DNA of 64,000 nt from Methanosaeta sp. PtaB.Bin039 (GTDB lineage Archaea > Halobacteriota > Methanosarcinia > Methanotrichales > Methanotrichaceae), in NCBI GenBank assembly GCA_002067795.1, contig MVQI01000051.1, positions 1-64,000 on the forward strand, written 5' to 3'. Below are positions 11,231-19,620 of the stretch, in pieces. Both the position numbers and the translations under genes were made by a program. The notes beneath the pieces are model-generated. The model had not been told where the DNA came from, searched no databases, and saw only the letters and a list, made by a program, of their open reading frames with translations. The first letter of the stretch is position 1, and each line of letters begins with the position of its first letter.

Positions 11231-12124
11231 CTATCCGCTCGTCAAGTTCTGGTCGGAGCGGACCTGGGATAGCCGCTCTTTGGCTGCGGCCACCTTGGCC
11301 TTTACGGAGTTCGGGTTCTCCTCAGCCGCCGACTTCTTGGAGCAGCATGCCGGGCCAGAAGCCGCCTCATTTGTCCCGGCTGCAACAGCCAGGCAACCCT
11401 GATCGATCTCTATGACCATGGGCTGGCCCAGATTGTCGTAGATCAGCCTGACCGGACGGCTGTATGGGGAGACGGGGACGAAATCGACACCGGTTCGGAG
11501 GCTCTCGTTGAACTGGAGCTGCCTGGATGTGAAGCCCGATCCCCCGTAGCTCCAGTTCCACTGGTCCACCATGGTGAAGTTCGAGGCGAATACCGGCAGC
11601 ACAGAGTTGTCGCGGTTGATCACGCCCACCTCAAGGGTGATCGACTTGGTCAGGGGTTCAAACCTCGAGCCGGCGATTCCGTAATAGAGGAGAGTCAGGT
11701 TCTGGTCGCTTACGTTAGCCAGATCTCCCAATTCCACGGAGAACAGCTGGCCGCCCTCAGGACTGGCTCTTGGGTCTGCCATCAGCCTTTTTGGGAGGGC
11801 CTCCTTTGGAACAACGAAAACCAGGATCCTGCGGCCGGTCTGTACATCCCTGGACAGACGGGAATTGAGATCGTAGACCCGGTCGTTTCGGTCAACCAGA
11901 TTGTACCTGACACCAGACATGTCGGCGTAGCTCCCGTTCGGGTATCGCAAACCGGTATCCAGGCAGAGCATCACATTCTTAGGATAGTTGATGTCGCCTG
12001 TGGTGAAGGGTGCCTTGAAGGAATCGAAGACCGTGCAGTTCAGCTGGCCGTTGTCGCCGCTGAATGGATAGGCAGAGGCAACCGAAGCCATGACTAAAAG
12101 GAGCATCCAGAGATGGTATCTCAT
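11231..12124 (-). CDS. Exported protein of unknown function near the tubulin-like operon
   Basis: 297 residues with a signal peptide ending about residue 18 (MLLLVMASVASA). The body looks beta-rich with several N-glycosylation sequons (for example NVSDQNLT, NWSY, NESL), then a charged helical tail after an ACC motif (about residue 260). No C-terminal membrane segment is seen. A purine-rich site (GGGGGTAGGGAAG) precedes ATG 12124 and a TATA-like box lies at 12171-12180. It is on the same strand as, and 300 bases downstream of, the tubulin-like gene, so a role in the same envelope locus is possible. Family not recognised. Confidence 0.72.
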   Translation of the reverse strand: MRYHLWMLLLVMASVASAYPFSGDNGQLNCTVFDSFKAPFTTGDINYPKNVMLCLDTGLRYPNGSYADMSGVRYNLVDRNDRVYDLNSRLSRDVQTGRRILVFVVPKEALPKRLMADPRASPEGGQLFSVELGDLANVSDQNLTLLYYGIAGSRFEPLTKSITLEVGVINRDNSVLPVFASNFTMVDQWNWSYGGSGFTSRQLQFNESLRTGVDFVPVSPYSRPVRLIYDNLGQPMVIEIDQGCLAVAAGTNEAASGPACCSKKSAAEENPNSVKAKVAAAKERLSQVRSDQNLTSG

Positions 12125-12424: not shown

Positions 12425-14131
12425 TCAAGAGCCGATCAACCTCTTTATGCGGGCCGCGCCCTCATCAGAGCTGAGGATCTGCTCCAGCTGAGATCTGACT
12501 ATCTCCTCAAGAGCTGCCCTTTCGGTTGCTTGTGGTGTGCACGCCTCGCGAACCGACCTAAAAGACCTCAAGTCGCCGATCCCGAACATGCTCATAGGTC
12601 TGCGGAACGGGTGCTTTTCCCCTCCCTCCAGCCTGGCCAGCGAGAGGCCGAGCTCATCCTTTAGCCCGCCCTGACCATACAGGTACTCCCTCAGATGTTC
12701 CTTTGTGAGGTCGCTGTAGCCCAGGTACTCTATGATGTCGGTCTCGTTCTCCTCGATATATCGTATGGCTTCGCCGATTACCTGATGCAGCCGGCTTTCA
12801 AGCGTCCCCTCCTCACGGCATGCCCCGGCACTGCCCCCATAAGGATTCCTGAGCAGGATCAACAGATCTTCCATCCGATCACCAAGCTTGCGGTAGACCT
12901 TGATCTCATGCCTTGGCAGACCTGTGCGTTTAGCTGTTGCCGAGATTAGCTCCTCGCTTGAGAAGAAGCCCCTGGATAGCACGTAAGCCCTCTCAGCCCT
13001 GGCCGGATCGCATGGAAACAGGCGGCCGTCCTTGGAGAGGGCCCTGTCTACCAGCGACTGTACCTGGCCGTCAGGCCTGCCGGCAGCGTAGCATGGGACC
13101 AGAAGCGGTGGCAACAGCCCTCCGGCGTCCGCGAGGTTTGCAGACTCGCCGTCCGTCTCCCAAAAGACCCGTCGCATGGCCGGGGCGTCGTCCTGGAGGC
13201 TGGATCCAGGGTAGTGACGGAGGTCCAGAAGAGGCTTTAGGCTGCGATAGATTGCCTCGTCCATCCGGGAGTAATTTCGGTCATATCGCTCCGACAAAAC
13301 CTGGTTATCGACAAGAAGCAAGCCGTCGATACCGGTTCCTGCCTCCTTGGTCAGCAGGTCGTACATGGCTATGGTCGCCCCCAGACATCTCTGGCCCTCG
13401 CTGGCATGTCGGGAATCCGATCCCCTTTCGGTGAGCACGCCAAGGGCGAATATCGGAAAGGCCAGCTCCTCGGACCGCACATAGCTGGTGATGGGATTTA
13501 TAAAGCCGGTCCCAGTCCCACCGCCAAGCGAGGCTATGAAAAGTATGCTGTCGCATAGACGCGAGTCGTGGCCATTGCTCTTAGGGGCGATGTCATGCCA
13601 TAACCACTGCATCCCGCTCAAGGCGCTCGGGTCCTCTCCATTTCCCACGTTGTTCTTGTTGCCCTTGCCCGCCCGCCTGGACAATGTTGTGAGAGGGCGG
13701 ATGCCTTCCTTCCAGACGTATCCTGATAGAGGATTCTCCTCGCCCGAAAACTCCTCCCGGGTCATCTTTTTCAGGTCTAAATCGTACTCGAAGATCTCGA
13801 ATATGCCTTTCAAGTACTCAGCCCGCCGGTCGTAACCCATGGCCTTGAGGTCGAATCCATAGACGCTCTGGATATAATCACGTGACGGCGAACCATCCGG
13901 CACCAGATCATGACAGATCAGATACCCTGGATAACATCCTTCTGCAAGGCTGCCGTAGAAATTTTGATTCTGAGCGTCCTGGCTGGCAGAGTCAAGCCAT
14001 ACACCCTTGACATCGCCGAAGGCGAGGTGCTGGCCGAAGCTGTGGACCTTGAGATCCACATCCTGGCTCTCCAGGAACTTGCGCAGGACATTGCATCCCG
14101 CACCGCCGATACCCACAACGCACGGTCTCAT
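12425..14131 (-). CDS. Tubulin/FtsZ-like GTPase, non-canonical
   Basis: A 568-residue cytoplasmic protein with the nucleotide-binding landmarks of the tubulin/FtsZ superfamily: GIGGAGCNVLRKF at residues 7-19 and the signature GGGTGTG at about 203-209, followed by LLLVDNQVL in a position like the FtsZ PND loop. About 185 residues separate the two motifs, against roughly 85 in FtsZ, so a large insertion is present. The usual NxDxAD-type catalytic loop is not evident; the closest segment reads ANLADAGGLL. It fits the tubulin-like (Tubulin_2 / FtsZ-like) families better than cell-division FtsZ. It is last in a four-gene operon, overlapping the preceding gene by ATGA, with membrane and exported partners. 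Filament formation and membrane remodelling are inferences. Confidence 0.8.
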   Translation of the reverse strand: MRPCVVGIGGAGCNVLRKFLESQDVDLKVHSFGQHLAFGDVKGVWLDSASQDAQNQNFYGSLAEGCYPGYLICHDLVPDGSPSRDYIQSVYGFDLKAMGYDRRAEYLKGIFEIFEYDLDLKKMTREEFSGEENPLSGYVWKEGIRPLTTLSRRAGKGNKNNVGNGEDPSALSGMQWLWHDIAPKSNGHDSRLCDSILFIASLGGGTGTGFINPITSYVRSEELAFPIFALGVLTERGSDSRHASEGQRCLGATIAMYDLLTKEAGTGIDGLLLVDNQVLSERYDRNYSRMDEAIYRSLKPLLDLRHYPGSSLQDDAPAMRRVFWETDGESANLADAGGLLPPLLVPCYAAGRPDGQVQSLVDRALSKDGRLFPCDPARAERAYVLSRGFFSSEELISATAKRTGLPRHEIKVYRKLGDRMEDLLILLRNPYGGSAGACREEGTLESRLHQVIGEAIRYIEENETDIIEYLGYSDLTKEHLREYLYGQGGLKDELGLSLARLEGGEKHPFRRPMSMFGIGDLRSFRSVREACTPQATERAALEEIVRSQLEQILSSDEGAARIKRLIGS

Positions 14132-14712
14132 TTAGATCTCCCCAGATAGCTAAGGATTACCGGCAGCATCAACAGCACAAGAGCGCCTGCCAGAGAAACG
14201 TAGCCAAGCCTCCAGGCCAACTCATCGCTGCCGGGGTATATTGTTCCCAGATAAGAGGAAGACAGGATCGATGTCGTCAAGAGCAGTGGAGCCACACGGG
14301 ACATCAGGCTCTTGGTCTGCCTGGATATCACATAGTAGCCATAGATGCGAGGCAGATACAGGTTTATCAGCGTCGCCAAAACCAGCACACATACACCAAG
14401 GAGCAATAGCCCCAGCTCCCAGGAGGCCACCGCAGGAAGACGGAAATAGTTCCACTGGGCGAAGACCTGCGGCGTGAGCAGGTAGAGGAACACGACCGCC
14501 ACGAAGAACAGGTTCCATGAAACCAGCATGATGGTAATGAAGTTGGAGCCCTGGGGGAGACGAAGCGAATCCTTGAGCTGGCTCATATTGAAATGGATAT
14601 CTGCACTCCTGCCAAGCCTGGCCTTCACCCGGACCAGGTAGGCCTGGTGAGCCAGAAGGCAGAGCGCCAAGAATCCCAACAGGGCTGCCAGAAGGATCAG
14701 CTCGTACCTCAT
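14128..14712 (-). CDS. Polytopic membrane protein in tubulin-like operon
   Basis: Not recognised. 194 residues with hydrophobic segments at about 4-27, 58-82, 95-118, 143-156 (weak) and 166-190. A basic loop (VRVKARLGRSADIHF) follows segment one. Overlaps of ATGA link it to the Ig-like gene before it and the tubulin-like GTPase gene after it, so the three are made together. It may be the membrane link between the cytoplasmic GTPase and the exported proteins (inference). Confidence 0.75.
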   Translation of the reverse strand: MRYELILLAALLGFLALCLLAHQAYLVRVKARLGRSADIHFNMSQLKDSLRLPQGSNFITIMLVSWNLFFVAVVFLYLLTPQVFAQWNYFRLPAVASWELGLLLLGVCVLVLATLINLYLPRIYGYYVISRQTKSLMSRVAPLLLTTSILSSSYLGTIYPGSDELAWRLGYVSLAGALVLLMLPVILSYLGRSK

Positions 14713-16100
14713 CGGTAAAACCTCCTCTCCACCACCATGCCTGCCAGCAGGGTCAGCAACAGCAGCAAGCCCAGGTTCAGGAACATGGGAAGCGAGACAA
14801 GATGGTACTTGACCAGCTTGGCACCGATGGGCTGTTTTCGTTCCGCCTCGGTGTAATCCTTCTGATGCTGATCGGGCTCAGTGTACATGAAACGATAGCT
14901 GAAAGTCTGATTGGCGTCCAAGACGTCGAACGGCCGAACGTTAAAGCTGACCACAGCCCGATCCTGACCGAGTACCACCTCCTTTGAGGCCACCCTCTTC
15001 CAGGGGTGGGAGGGCGTGTTGGTCAGAAGGGTCACCGCCACCTTGGCCTCGCCCGACTCCTGATTCTTCATATCGATGCTGAAGTTGTAATTCTGCCACC
15101 AGTACTGGTTCTCGTCCTCAGGCATGACCCGGGGATTGTCCACATAGAGAAGGGCGCTCCTGCGCAAGTTTGGACCTTGCTGCAGCTCAGTCTCCGAGAC
15201 ATTTATGCCATCGCCGAAGCTGTAGTAATAGCTGAAGTTCTTGCCGGCATCTGCCTTGCTGAAGAAGCCGTATTCGTTGGCCCGGAAATCAACTACCTGA
15301 CCTGATCGGACGTCCTGGCTTGCATTGCCGACCTCCCCACCCTCACCACTGAGCACGTGGATGGTCAGATTGATCAGGTCGCCATCCACGTCTGCCGGCT
15401 CCGACCGGTAGACTATCGGATCGTTGTAGCGGGGCGGAGTGGGTGCCTGGATCGTCAGGTTGGATATGTTGGGGGGATTATTGGTCACTGTCAGTGTCAG
15501 GTTCTTGGATGTCCAGGGACGAAGCCCATCAGTCAGACGCATTCGCAGGACCACCGGGCCAACCTCCTTCAGGTGCTTGAAATCTGTCAGGTCGGGGAAC
15601 GTGCGCACAGTGAAATTTTGCTCTGTGCTCTTATCGTAAGTGTAATCGTTTATCTGGATTATCTGGGGAATGGAGTTCACCTGCCTGAAATCGGTCGCTC
15701 CAGGCTCCAGAACATCCAGGTAGAGATAGTAAGCCCGTCTGATCTGAATGGGATTGGGATTCTCCACCCGGGCGTAGATATTGGCCTTTTCGCTTCGGGA
15801 TATAGTCTCGTTTCCTGTAGTGTACAGGGCCATGCGTGGAGACAGATACTCTTCTGTGGTGAACGGCTCGATATACAGCAGCTTTTTCAGCTGTTCGAAC
15901 TTCTGGGGCTTTTGAGTCTTGCCGTCCTCAAGGGCCTTGAATATCCTGTCGAAATCGATGGTTCGGTGGCCACCACCGCCACCGCTGCTGACCGGTGTTG
16001 GAGGAGGGATGGACTGGGTGGGACCCTCAGCCCAGGCCACTGCCGTAAGCACGGCCATCAAAGCGAGCAGCAGTAGCAAAGCAGCCTGGACGCCCCTCAT
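14709..16100 (-). CDS. Type I membrane protein with Ig-like extracellular domains
   Basis: 463 residues from ATG 16100, which overlaps the upstream stop by ATGA. A signal peptide (about 1-24) and a Gly/Pro/Ser linker are followed by a beta-rich extracellular region with many N-glycosylation sequons. Ig-like or PKD-like stretches include RLTDGLRPWTSKNLTLTV and ADVDGDLINLTIHV. One membrane helix lies near the C-terminus (about 436-456) with a short basic tail (VERRFYR). The topology puts the bulk outside the cell. The open frame extends further upstream, but that part belongs to the neighbouring gene's other frame. Confidence 0.78.
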   Translation of the reverse strand: MRGVQAALLLLLALMAVLTAVAWAEGPTQSIPPPTPVSSGGGGGHRTIDFDRIFKALEDGKTQKPQKFEQLKKLLYIEPFTTEEYLSPRMALYTTGNETISRSEKANIYARVENPNPIQIRRAYYLYLDVLEPGATDFRQVNSIPQIIQINDYTYDKSTEQNFTVRTFPDLTDFKHLKEVGPVVLRMRLTDGLRPWTSKNLTLTVTNNPPNISNLTIQAPTPPRYNDPIVYRSEPADVDGDLINLTIHVLSGEGGEVGNASQDVRSGQVVDFRANEYGFFSKADAGKNFSYYYSFGDGINVSETELQQGPNLRRSALLYVDNPRVMPEDENQYWWQNYNFSIDMKNQESGEAKVAVTLLTNTPSHPWKRVASKEVVLGQDRAVVSFNVRPFDVLDANQTFSYRFMYTEPDQHQKDYTEAERKQPIGAKLVKYHLVSLPMFLNLGLLLLLTLLAGMVVERRFYR

Positions 16101-17737
16101 CCTCTCACCACATCGTACTTGACCGCCTGATGCCAGGGCTGGTTGGACCAGACGAGCTCCTTCCATTCGCCACTCTCGGACTCGTAGTATTGGATCAGAC
16201 TTGACCTGGTCCACTTTACGCCGTCGTCGGTATAGATCAGTTCGACAGGCAGACGGGAATACGAAGATCGAAGCTTGACCTTGTAGTTGAAGCGGTCGGT
16301 CTGGCCGACCCGCTCGTAGGTGGTCCCCTGGAAGTTGACATCGAAGTTGGGACCAAAGAACTCTCCCAGGACGTTGTTGTCCCATACGAAGCGATACCTG
16401 GCCAATCCCACCTCCTCAACGGAAGGATCGAATGTGGCATTTCGCCAGATGAGCGTGCTATTCGCTCCGTTGTAGGTGGCAACTCCACGGCTCTCCCAAA
16501 TGCCAGAGCCGGGTGCAGCAGCCTGCAGCTCGACCTCGCAGCGCGGGCGGGCTGTCACGACCTCGACCGAATAGGTGTAAGGGGTATAGGCGCTGCCGTT
16601 GTAAGGCGCAACAGAAGCGTCATTGAGCGCCACTACCACCAGATCCGGCCCGGCGAAGTACTTGCCTGTCATCTCCCGGGTCGTGGCGAAGGGGGCCTCG
16701 GCACCCGGATAGTAGAACCCGAAGTAGTGGTTGGCAGATCCGGCAGCTTCAGGGTCGGCCGATGCTGACACAGCGTCCCAGTGCAGGGACTGCCACCGGC
16801 CTGCATCCTGGTAGGATCTCCGACCGGCCTCAACGAAGCTCTTGCTGCTCACATCGAAGATGCTGAGCCCCACCTCGATAGGCCGGGAGGAGTTGACCTG
16901 TATGCCGAACTGAAACGCCGTGCTTGAAAGCCCCCGCTCCGGGGCGAGGGTGTTGTTGGAAAAGATCACGTCCACCGGCCAGAACGGGCCCTCGCCCATG
17001 GACTGCTTCCTCCCCGTGAACCTGTAAGCAGCGGAGTCGAAATCGAAGGCCAGAGAGATGTTGCTCCATGTGAGGGTCTGCCAGGATCCAGGAGTCGAGT
17101 ACTCTCTTCGTCCCATATCGGTCCAGGGGCCGTTTTTCGATGGTGCTACCTCCAGGGTGATGTTGTCTGATATGGTGGACATCACCTGAACCTGGTATGA
17201 AAACACGTCCTTGGATGTGCCTTTGCGGGGCTCTACCCGGAAATTGCGGAACTCCTCCATCACCTTGATCAGGGATGGACGGCCGCTGTAGTCTTCCATA
17301 TGGGCCGGCTGCTCGAAGGGATTGAGTGAGCTGACATCCACTGAGAACCAGGCCCTATCCCAGGCCGATGTCTGGTTCTTGTCGCTCAGCCACTTGCCGA
17401 ACTCGCCGCGGCGGAACTCGGGGGACTGGAAATTAACCTGAAAGCTGAGCACGCCAGAGGAGCCGGGGTTGAGGTTGATATCCTGGCTCTGGGTCTTTGA
17501 GATCTCGGTATCTTCCAGGTCAGGCCCAAGGCTGAGCTTGACCGAATAAAGCATGGAGCTCTTGGCCCCGGAGAGCGTGACCTGGTAGGTGACGGTCTTT
17601 CCGACATCCAGTGGCTCGCGCTGCATGCCCTCCTGAACTGTCGTGACCGAGAGCTCTACCGCCCCCGCCGGCACAGCTGATACAATAAGCAAAATTGTAG
17701 CCAGTACCATTATCCCAGAGCAACCTAATTGGACCAA
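16097..17737 (-). CDS. Exported repeat protein, first gene of tubulin-like operon
   Basis: 546 residues with a signal peptide (about 1-26). An N-terminal domain (about 30-160) resembles the N-terminal domain of the divergent transglutaminase: QEGMQREPLDVGKTVTYQVTL compares with QDGSDQEPFDIQRPITYRISL, and GRPSLIKV with GHPRLIKP. Four tandem beta-rich repeats follow at about 165-262, 270-370, 378-470 and 480-546. They share the pattern E(V/L)...(G)R..Y...G.W..L.W and AxYRF...F.GP...V; the fourth is cut short. No C-terminal anchor is visible, so it is either secreted or held by partners. TTG 17737 follows GGGGGGT; ATG 17710 is an alternative. Confidence 0.78.
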   Translation of the reverse strand: MVQLGCSGIMVLATILLIVSAVPAGAVELSVTTVQEGMQREPLDVGKTVTYQVTLSGAKSSMLYSVKLSLGPDLEDTEISKTQSQDINLNPGSSGVLSFQVNFQSPEFRRGEFGKWLSDKNQTSAWDRAWFSVDVSSLNPFEQPAHMEDYSGRPSLIKVMEEFRNFRVEPRKGTSKDVFSYQVQVMSTISDNITLEVAPSKNGPWTDMGRREYSTPGSWQTLTWSNISLAFDFDSAAYRFTGRKQSMGEGPFWPVDVIFSNNTLAPERGLSSTAFQFGIQVNSSRPIEVGLSIFDVSSKSFVEAGRRSYQDAGRWQSLHWDAVSASADPEAAGSANHYFGFYYPGAEAPFATTREMTGKYFAGPDLVVVALNDASVAPYNGSAYTPYTYSVEVVTARPRCEVELQAAAPGSGIWESRGVATYNGANSTLIWRNATFDPSVEEVGLARYRFVWDNNVLGEFFGPNFDVNFQGTTYERVGQTDRFNYKVKLRSSYSRLPVELIYTDDGVKWTRSSLIQYYESESGEWKELVWSNQPWHQAVKYDVVRG

Positions 17738-18255: not shown

Positions 18256-19620
18256 ATGGCAGATATGAATCCCCACCACATCCCCTCCCCGGCCCCTCTG
18301 GCCCTGGCCATCCTGCTGACCCTATCTTTGACAATCTCGGCTGCAGCAGTCTTTAGCCCGGCCGTCACCCTGTATCAGGACGGCTCAGATCAGGAGCCGT
18401 TTGACATACAGCGCCCCATCACATACCGGATATCCCTGCCTTTCGAGTCGCTGGAGAACCAGAGTTACCGGGCCAGGCTGCAGGTATGGGCCGACGGCAG
18501 CTGGGTGGGCTGCCGAACACTGATCGGGCATCTGGACATGGACAGCCCAAAGCTCAACTTCTCGGTAGGCCTGGCCGGATCCGACCTGCGATCTCCTTCA
18601 CTTCAGGCCTGGCTGGCAGGCGGCAACTCCCAGGAGTGGAAGAGCGCCAGGTACGTCCTCACACTCACAGCGGAGAGCGGCCCGTCCTTCGGCCGGGAGG
18701 TGAAGGGCCATCCCAGGCTGATCAAGCCCAGGCCAGCCAGATGGAACGCGACAGACTACTCGGCCATTGACCGTCACGCCCTCTCTGCACCAGCCGACCT
18801 GCAGACAATACCCAGGCTCTCCGACTACCTCACAAGGACTGCCAGAAATGACCGGGAGAAGGCCAGGGCGCTGTTTCGCTGGGTGACCGAGAACGTGAAC
18901 TACGATATGGGCGGCCTGACCTCCGGCCAGCCTGCCGATACCTCGGCAGCCGCAGTGCTCAAGAGCCGCCGCTCGATCTGCGGCGGATACACCGACCTGT
19001 TCTCAGCCCTTGCCCAGTCTGCTGGCCTTGAGGCGGTCAGCATAAGCGGCTACGCCAAGGGCTACGACTACAGGGTCGGTGACGTTTTTCCAGATGAGGC
19101 AAACCACGCCTGGAACGCCGTCCGGCTGGATGGCGCGTGGTACCTGCTGGACACCACTTGGGGCGCGGGGTATGTCGATGCAGGCAGGTATATCCGCCAG
19201 TTCGAGGACTTCTACTTCCTGACCCCGCCCGAACAGTTCGCCTACACCCATTATCCATTGGACAGCTCATGGCAGCTGCTGGCCGATCCGATCAGCAAGC
19301 AGGAGTTCGAGGATCGTGCCTATCAGAAGCCAGCATTCTTTAAAGCTGGCCTGCGTCTGATCAGACCCCGCAACGGAACCATCCTGGCCGATCGCAATGT
19401 GGAGGTGCTGATGGCTGCACCTGCCGACGTATTCCTGACCGCCCAGCTGCTGCGGGGTGAGGTTGACGGACAGCCATCAGTGAGCAGAGATGGCCCGCTC
19501 TACCGCATCAGCGCCACGCTTCCAGGAAGCGGTGAGTACATCCTGAGGATTTTTGCCCGCCGCGGCGATCAGTACGGATATTACGACTGGGCTGCAGACC
19601 TTCTGATCCGGTCTGAATAG
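18256..19620 (+). CDS. Secreted transglutaminase-like protein
   Basis: 454 residues. A signal segment (about 14-31) precedes an N-terminal domain (36-158) shared with the first protein of the divergent operon. A transglutaminase/protease-like core follows (about 185-305), with the expected triad Cys242 in RSICGGYTDLFSALA, His284 in NHAWNAVRLDG and Asp299 in YLLDTTWG. A beta-rich C-terminal domain (about 345-454) has no membrane anchor. Family members cross-link or cleave peptides; the target is unknown. The shared domain suggests it works on or beside the operon's surface proteins (inference). ATG 18265 is an alternative start. Confidence 0.85.
   Translation: MADMNPHHIPSPAPLALAILLTLSLTISAAAVFSPAVTLYQDGSDQEPFDIQRPITYRISLPFESLENQSYRARLQVWADGSWVGCRTLIGHLDMDSPKLNFSVGLAGSDLRSPSLQAWLAGGNSQEWKSARYVLTLTAESGPSFGREVKGHPRLIKPRPARWNATDYSAIDRHALSAPADLQTIPRLSDYLTRTARNDREKARALFRWVTENVNYDMGGLTSGQPADTSAAAVLKSRRSICGGYTDLFSALAQSAGLEAVSISGYAKGYDYRVGDVFPDEANHAWNAVRLDGAWYLLDTTWGAGYVDAGRYIRQFEDFYFLTPPEQFAYTHYPLDSSWQLLADPISKQEFEDRAYQKPAFFKAGLRLIRPRNGTILADRNVEVLMAAPADVFLTAQLLRGEVDGQPSVSRDGPLYRISATLPGSGEYILRIFARRGDQYGYYDWAADLLIRSE

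Follow-up and report, generated by a model that had tools for sequence, protein, structure and literature searches.

A conserved four-gene operon of Methanotrichaceae encoding a divergent tubulin-superfamily GTPase together with membrane and exported proteins

We describe a four-gene operon in a 64,000-nt stretch of DNA (referred to as the window; positions 1 to 64,000, forward strand, of contig MVQI01000051.1, assembly GCA_002067795.1) from the archaeon Methanosaeta sp. PtaB.Bin039. Four open reading frames (ORFs) lie head to tail on the minus strand at 17737-12425, in the transcript order X, I, M, Z; the gene names stand for exported (X), type I membrane (I), polytopic (M) and GTPase (Z). 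A preliminary description of the window had noted that the four genes are joined by three ATGA overlaps, and these were read in the sequence exactly where it had placed them, at 16097..16100 (X/I), 14709..14712 (I/M) and 14128..14131 (M/Z).

The X-I-M-Z arrangement is not due to chance, as the same order recurs across 10 genera and the overlaps are retained. The 4-base M/Z overlap (NTGA) is present at 39 of 41 loci, the I/M overlap at 25 of 41 and the X/I overlap at 6 of 34. Z was found in 45 of the 50 Methanotrichales genomes, including 32 of the 33 of good quality, with the gene order X-I-M-Z preserved; the predicted recurrence of the four-gene order in relatives is borne out. Among 394 genomes sampled phylum-wide, the Z profile and the I profile each matched the same 14 genomes only: 13 Methanotrichales and one metagenome-assembled genome (MAG) of Methanocellales. 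When 84,980 species genomes were scanned with a sequence pattern, full-length relatives came up only in the Methanothrix family and in UBA148, the Methanocellaceae MAG among the 14, which carries all four genes with 4-base overlaps. The Z protein of UBA148 nests inside the clade of the window protein, and this copy seems to be a transfer of the whole operon as a unit; that it is a misbinned Methanothrix contig is less likely, given the GC content of this locus (41.6%, versus 50-57% at the other loci checked). Inheritance of the operon is mostly vertical. A second, divergent Z copy was observed in three genomes (G011, G009 and G001; loci L067, L069 and L071), each adjoining its own I, M and X-like gene.

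The Z gene (12425..14131, minus strand) encodes a genuine tubulin-superfamily protein of 568 amino acids (aa), identified by Pfam, a PDB profile search, AlphaFold with Foldseek, and hhalign. Both motifs for which the protein had been singled out as tubulin-like, the T1 motif GIGGAGCN (residues 7-14) and the T4 motif GGGTGTG (residues 203-209), are present along with a CetZ-like DNQ motif, and hydropathy analysis detects no membrane segment. The T1 glycines G7, G9, G10 and G12 and the GGGTGTG motif are invariant across 40 Z sequences. Pfam Tubulin matches all 40 members of the Z family (best E-value 2.1e-10); on the window Z alone the score of 31.4 is just below the cut-off of 33 (E-value 2.9e-7). 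In a PDB search with the Z family profile CetZ structures rank first (4b45, E-value 3.8e-5). The AlphaFold model of Z, built from 40 sequences (predicted local distance difference test score, pLDDT, 80), matches tubulins in Foldseek at an E-value of 5e-12, with >1000 matches below 0.001. The strongest profile-profile match in hhalign is to CetZ (probability 98, E-value 1.5e-13, 185 columns); the E-values are 7.6e-6 for FtsZl1, with 58 columns aligned, and 1.9e-5 for FtsZ. The assignment of Z to the tubulin superfamily made in the preliminary description is thus upheld.

The position of the CetZ T7 aspartate is occupied by Ala in 35, Gly in 3 and Ser in 2 of the 40 Z sequences, as judged from the profile alignment. 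A nearby acidic residue, 310, is Glu in 29 and Asp in 5 members of the family, but Ser in the window Z. The T7 catalytic acid of Z appears to be lost, and FtsZ-like dynamic turnover is therefore doubtful. Superfamily members without the T7 acid exist in principle, and its absence says more about how Z works than about whether Z belongs to the superfamily. Members of the Z family range in length from ∼510 to 690 aa and consist of a folded core, a variable linker and, in nearly all of them, a conserved C-terminal helix; FtsZ reaches its anchors by the same layout of linker and C-terminal segment. The possibility that the C-terminal helix is an amphipathic membrane helix was considered and rejected, since its hydrophobic moment was no better than that of shuffled tails (mean p 0.34).

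The same genome encodes two FtsZ and one CetZ elsewhere; Z is therefore an extra paralogue. It is not an FtsZ: although T1, T4 and the linker with C-terminal helix are common to Z and FtsZ1/FtsZ2, the similarity is weak and the score against the NCBIfam ftsZ equivalog, 21.4 bits, is far under the cut-off of 295.2. CetZ (e.g. PDB 4b45 and 3zid) is the best profile match, with the DNQ motif and an alignable C-terminal domain in common; still, Z was rejected as a CetZ, because the true CetZ is a separate gene with the motifs GVGQCGN and SGGTGSS in place of the FtsZ-type GIGGxG and GGGTGTG of Z, and because CetZ is ∼370 aa long, while Z lacks the T7 acid and resides in its own operon. According to surveys of CetZ, Methanosarcinales genomes each have a single clear CetZ (PMC9856176), and CetZ-like groups reported in Halobacterota have genes in quasi-tandem copies (PMC9871819), an organisation unlike that of the X-I-M-Z operon. 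The nearest described kind of system is made up of the FtsZl1 operons with membrane partners (PMC2875224). Like Z, FtsZl1 is a divergent tubulin-family GTPase with adjoining lineage-specific membrane genes, occurs typically in addition to canonical FtsZ and has an extra segment between T1 and T4; it differs in its length of ∼1050 aa, its coiled coil and its vWA, kinase and GTPase partners (PMC2875224). The core X-I-M-Z operon contains no vWA, kinase or second GTPase gene, and Z was rejected as an FtsZl1 on its length, the 58 aligned columns and a Tubulin_2 score of 14.7 bits (cut-off 27). We found no published description of X-I-M-Z in the open-access literature, in line with the earlier remark that no system with these partners has been described.

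M (14128..14712, minus strand, 194 aa) is a polytopic membrane protein, as had been proposed, and belongs to no known family; hydropathy reveals several segments, and the AlphaFold model (pLDDT 91) has five helices of membrane-spanning length, with no PDB match to the fold at an E-value of 0.001 or better. I (14709..16100, minus strand, 463 aa) starts at 16100 and not at the longer-ORF start, 16385. It had been described as a type I Ig-like protein; hydropathy supports the first part, with a signal sequence, a single C-terminal transmembrane segment (residues 432-459) and, beyond it, a short tail, which in many members has a short conserved ER-x-x-R ending. The Ig/PKD-like nature of the ectodomain is suggested less firmly, by matches of relatives to Big_9 (4.6e-5), PKD and cadherin-like Pfam families, the window I itself having no Pfam match. 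X (16097..17710, minus strand) is about 537 aa long if translated from the ATG at 17710, which alignment with relatives makes more likely than the TTG at 17737. Its signal sequence, in the absence of any other transmembrane segment by hydropathy, agrees with its description as exported; an N-terminal module is followed by beta-rich repeats, of which only a degenerate pattern is visible and no repeat is detected by BLASTP of X against itself, so that the designation as a repeat protein did not hold to the same extent. In part of the family (L044, L062 and L067) X grows to 1235-1460 aa, and it is mainly in the C-terminal region that these long forms still resemble the short one.

Several neighbouring genes deserve mention. 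Downstream of Z, gene D (11231..12124, minus strand) encodes an exported protein of 297 aa of unknown family, which occupies the same position in the six genomes of the g9 sub-lineage (about 40% identity) and is a possible fifth operon gene there. Divergent from X, gene T (18256..19620, plus strand) encodes a secreted transglutaminase-like protein (Pfam Transglut_core, 1.9e-19) that also has a KY-type Ig-like domain. The N-terminal domains of X and T are homologous (BLASTP 7e-8; the X profile matches T at 6.6e-10), a common module indicative of domain shuffling between divergent neighbours; T is probably associated with the operon and not part of its core. Genes for an aminotransferase and RNase HII, named from reading the sequences, lie upstream of the operon at 22 loci and look like position anchors. 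At 12 loci, in part of genus g8, a DsbD-like gene (AhpC/TSA plus DsbD_TM; L051:12378-14368 and 11 others) follows Z shortly downstream on the same strand, with a thioredoxin-like gene adjoining in 10. Surface proteins with vWA domains are encoded near the operon at eight loci; among them are the large exported proteins at L063:13791-16136 (Pfam vWA) and L155:457-4272 (vWA-like by eye), which recall the vWA partners of FtsZl1. In the Methanocellaceae MAG a secreted protein of the GH25 (lysozyme) family is encoded next to the operon (L155:10241-11869). The upstream ends of L045, L046 and L047 carry a tandem secreted family of 218-296 aa with no Pfam match; Methanosarcinaceae have longer relatives of it, of about 700-830 aa, that contain repeats. 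A secreted repeat family found upstream in some genera (family 6) was considered as a candidate for the sheath (SH) protein; its profile matches Methanosarcinaceae and not the published SH distribution, and it is probably not SH. Judged by their predicted products, the DsbD-like, thioredoxin-like, vWA and transglutaminase-like neighbours suggest that proteins are assembled or crosslinked outside the cytoplasm, though none of these genes is universal.

Taking the observed gene order, co-occurrence, fold class and topology together, the explanation we favour is that X, I, M and Z form one envelope-spanning complex, special to Methanotrichaceae, that organises surface proteins; we consider this about as probable as all else combined. 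As to its contacts, nucleotide cycle, polymerisation and purpose, we infer the following. Cytoplasmic Z would bind GTP through its T1 and T4 loops, both of which are intact, and self-association is probable; without the usual T7 acid, Z is less likely to treadmill like FtsZ than to serve as a slow or switch-like scaffold. The C-terminal helix of Z, on its variable linker, may dock on M, on the short tail of I, or on both; the putative Ig-like ectodomain of I, situated below the S-layer and sheath, would engage secreted X. The chain from Z through M/I to X could then position or gate the steps by which surface proteins are assembled or crosslinked outside the cytoplasm. Some points weigh against this explanation. 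A complete genome, G015 (two contigs, 3,008,626 and 18,019 bp), which matches M. soehngenii GP6 in size, is without X, I and Z by profile search (M was not separately searched), and no operon remnant is seen beside its anchor gene. The neighbours of the operon differ between genera. The Z helix is not significantly amphipathic, and helix docking is therefore a guess. The earlier proposal of one trans-membrane machine draws good support from the co-occurrence of the genes and from their overlaps, and a physical association of the products is predicted.

The more specific roles suggested at first, in envelope shaping, septum or sheath assembly, are conjectural; two FtsZ and a CetZ are kept for division and shape, and G015 lacks X, I and Z. 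One could imagine a sheath or septal-plug machine, with Z marking the sites where I and X insert hoops or build filament plugs. Almost all occurrences of the operon are in Methanotrichales, in all of which SH proteins are reported; the sheath survey names no assembly or plug protein; and the hoops are linked by disulfides (PMC11576556), which would fit the DsbD-like gene downstream of Z at 12 loci. Operon and archaeal sheath system resemble each other in lineage overlap, extracytoplasmic Ig-like proteins and disulfide enzymes at some loci. They part company in G015, where X, I and Z are missing from a complete genome of a sheathed lineage, yet SH is reported throughout Methanotrichales (PMC11576556); the operon is therefore not essential for the sheath, although it may alter the sheath in some way or be active in certain species only. 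Moreover, Methanospirillaceae are sheathed too, but outside Methanotrichales Z occurred, among the sampled genomes, in one Methanocellales MAG only, and no link to an SH gene cluster turned up, the SH sequences themselves not having been queried. We regard such a sheath machine as unlikely, and the more elaborate version, a tubulin-based trans-membrane machine that controls sheath or plug assembly from the cytoplasm without the canonical T7 hydrolysis switch, as a still bolder conjecture.

It is likewise unlikely that Z fills in the Methanothrix family the role that FtsZl1 has, with its vWA and membrane partners, in other prokaryotes, as part of a membrane-remodelling or vesicle system. No FtsZl1 of ∼1000 aa (Tubulin_2) was found in this family, while Methanosarcinaceae have one; vWA proteins occur near the operon at eight loci; and lineage-specific membrane genes and extra T1-T4 segments are common to both (PMC2875224). 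However, Z lacks the coiled coil and C-terminal domain of FtsZl1, aligns with it over 58 columns and is closer to CetZ by profile, and the core operon offers none of the vWA, kinase or GTPase partners. An accessory cytokinetic role, in which Z joins FtsZ1 and FtsZ2 as a third Z-ring component and has M and I for its anchors, would agree with the FtsZ-like arrangement of T1, T4 and C-terminal tail; it is made quite improbable by the two canonical FtsZ and the CetZ already in the genome, the loss of all of X, I and Z from G015 and the apparent absence of the T7 acid required for hydrolysis in the FtsZ polymer. That no partner has a known function could indicate that unrelated genes share a transcript, or that the operon belongs to a defence system or mobile element, but exact co-occurrence and gene order contradict this, as does mostly vertical inheritance, and we give it hardly any credence. 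No PADLOC match pointed to a defence system and no relative on viral contigs to a viral origin.

Few functional classes are known among the prokaryotic relatives of tubulin; these proteins serve in division, in shape or in the segregation of plasmids or phages, or belong to the FtsZl1 systems, which are uncharacterised. To these classes Z adds a further tubulin subfamily, with a nearly invariant set of transmembrane and secreted partners, in the Methanothrix lineage of globally abundant methanogens. The natural loss of X, I and Z in one complete genome provides a ready comparison. X, I, M and Z offer named genes for studying the possible action of a cytoplasmic tubulin on the archaeal cell surface; the filaments concerned have sheaths and plugs for which no assembly factor has been named so far (PMC11576556).

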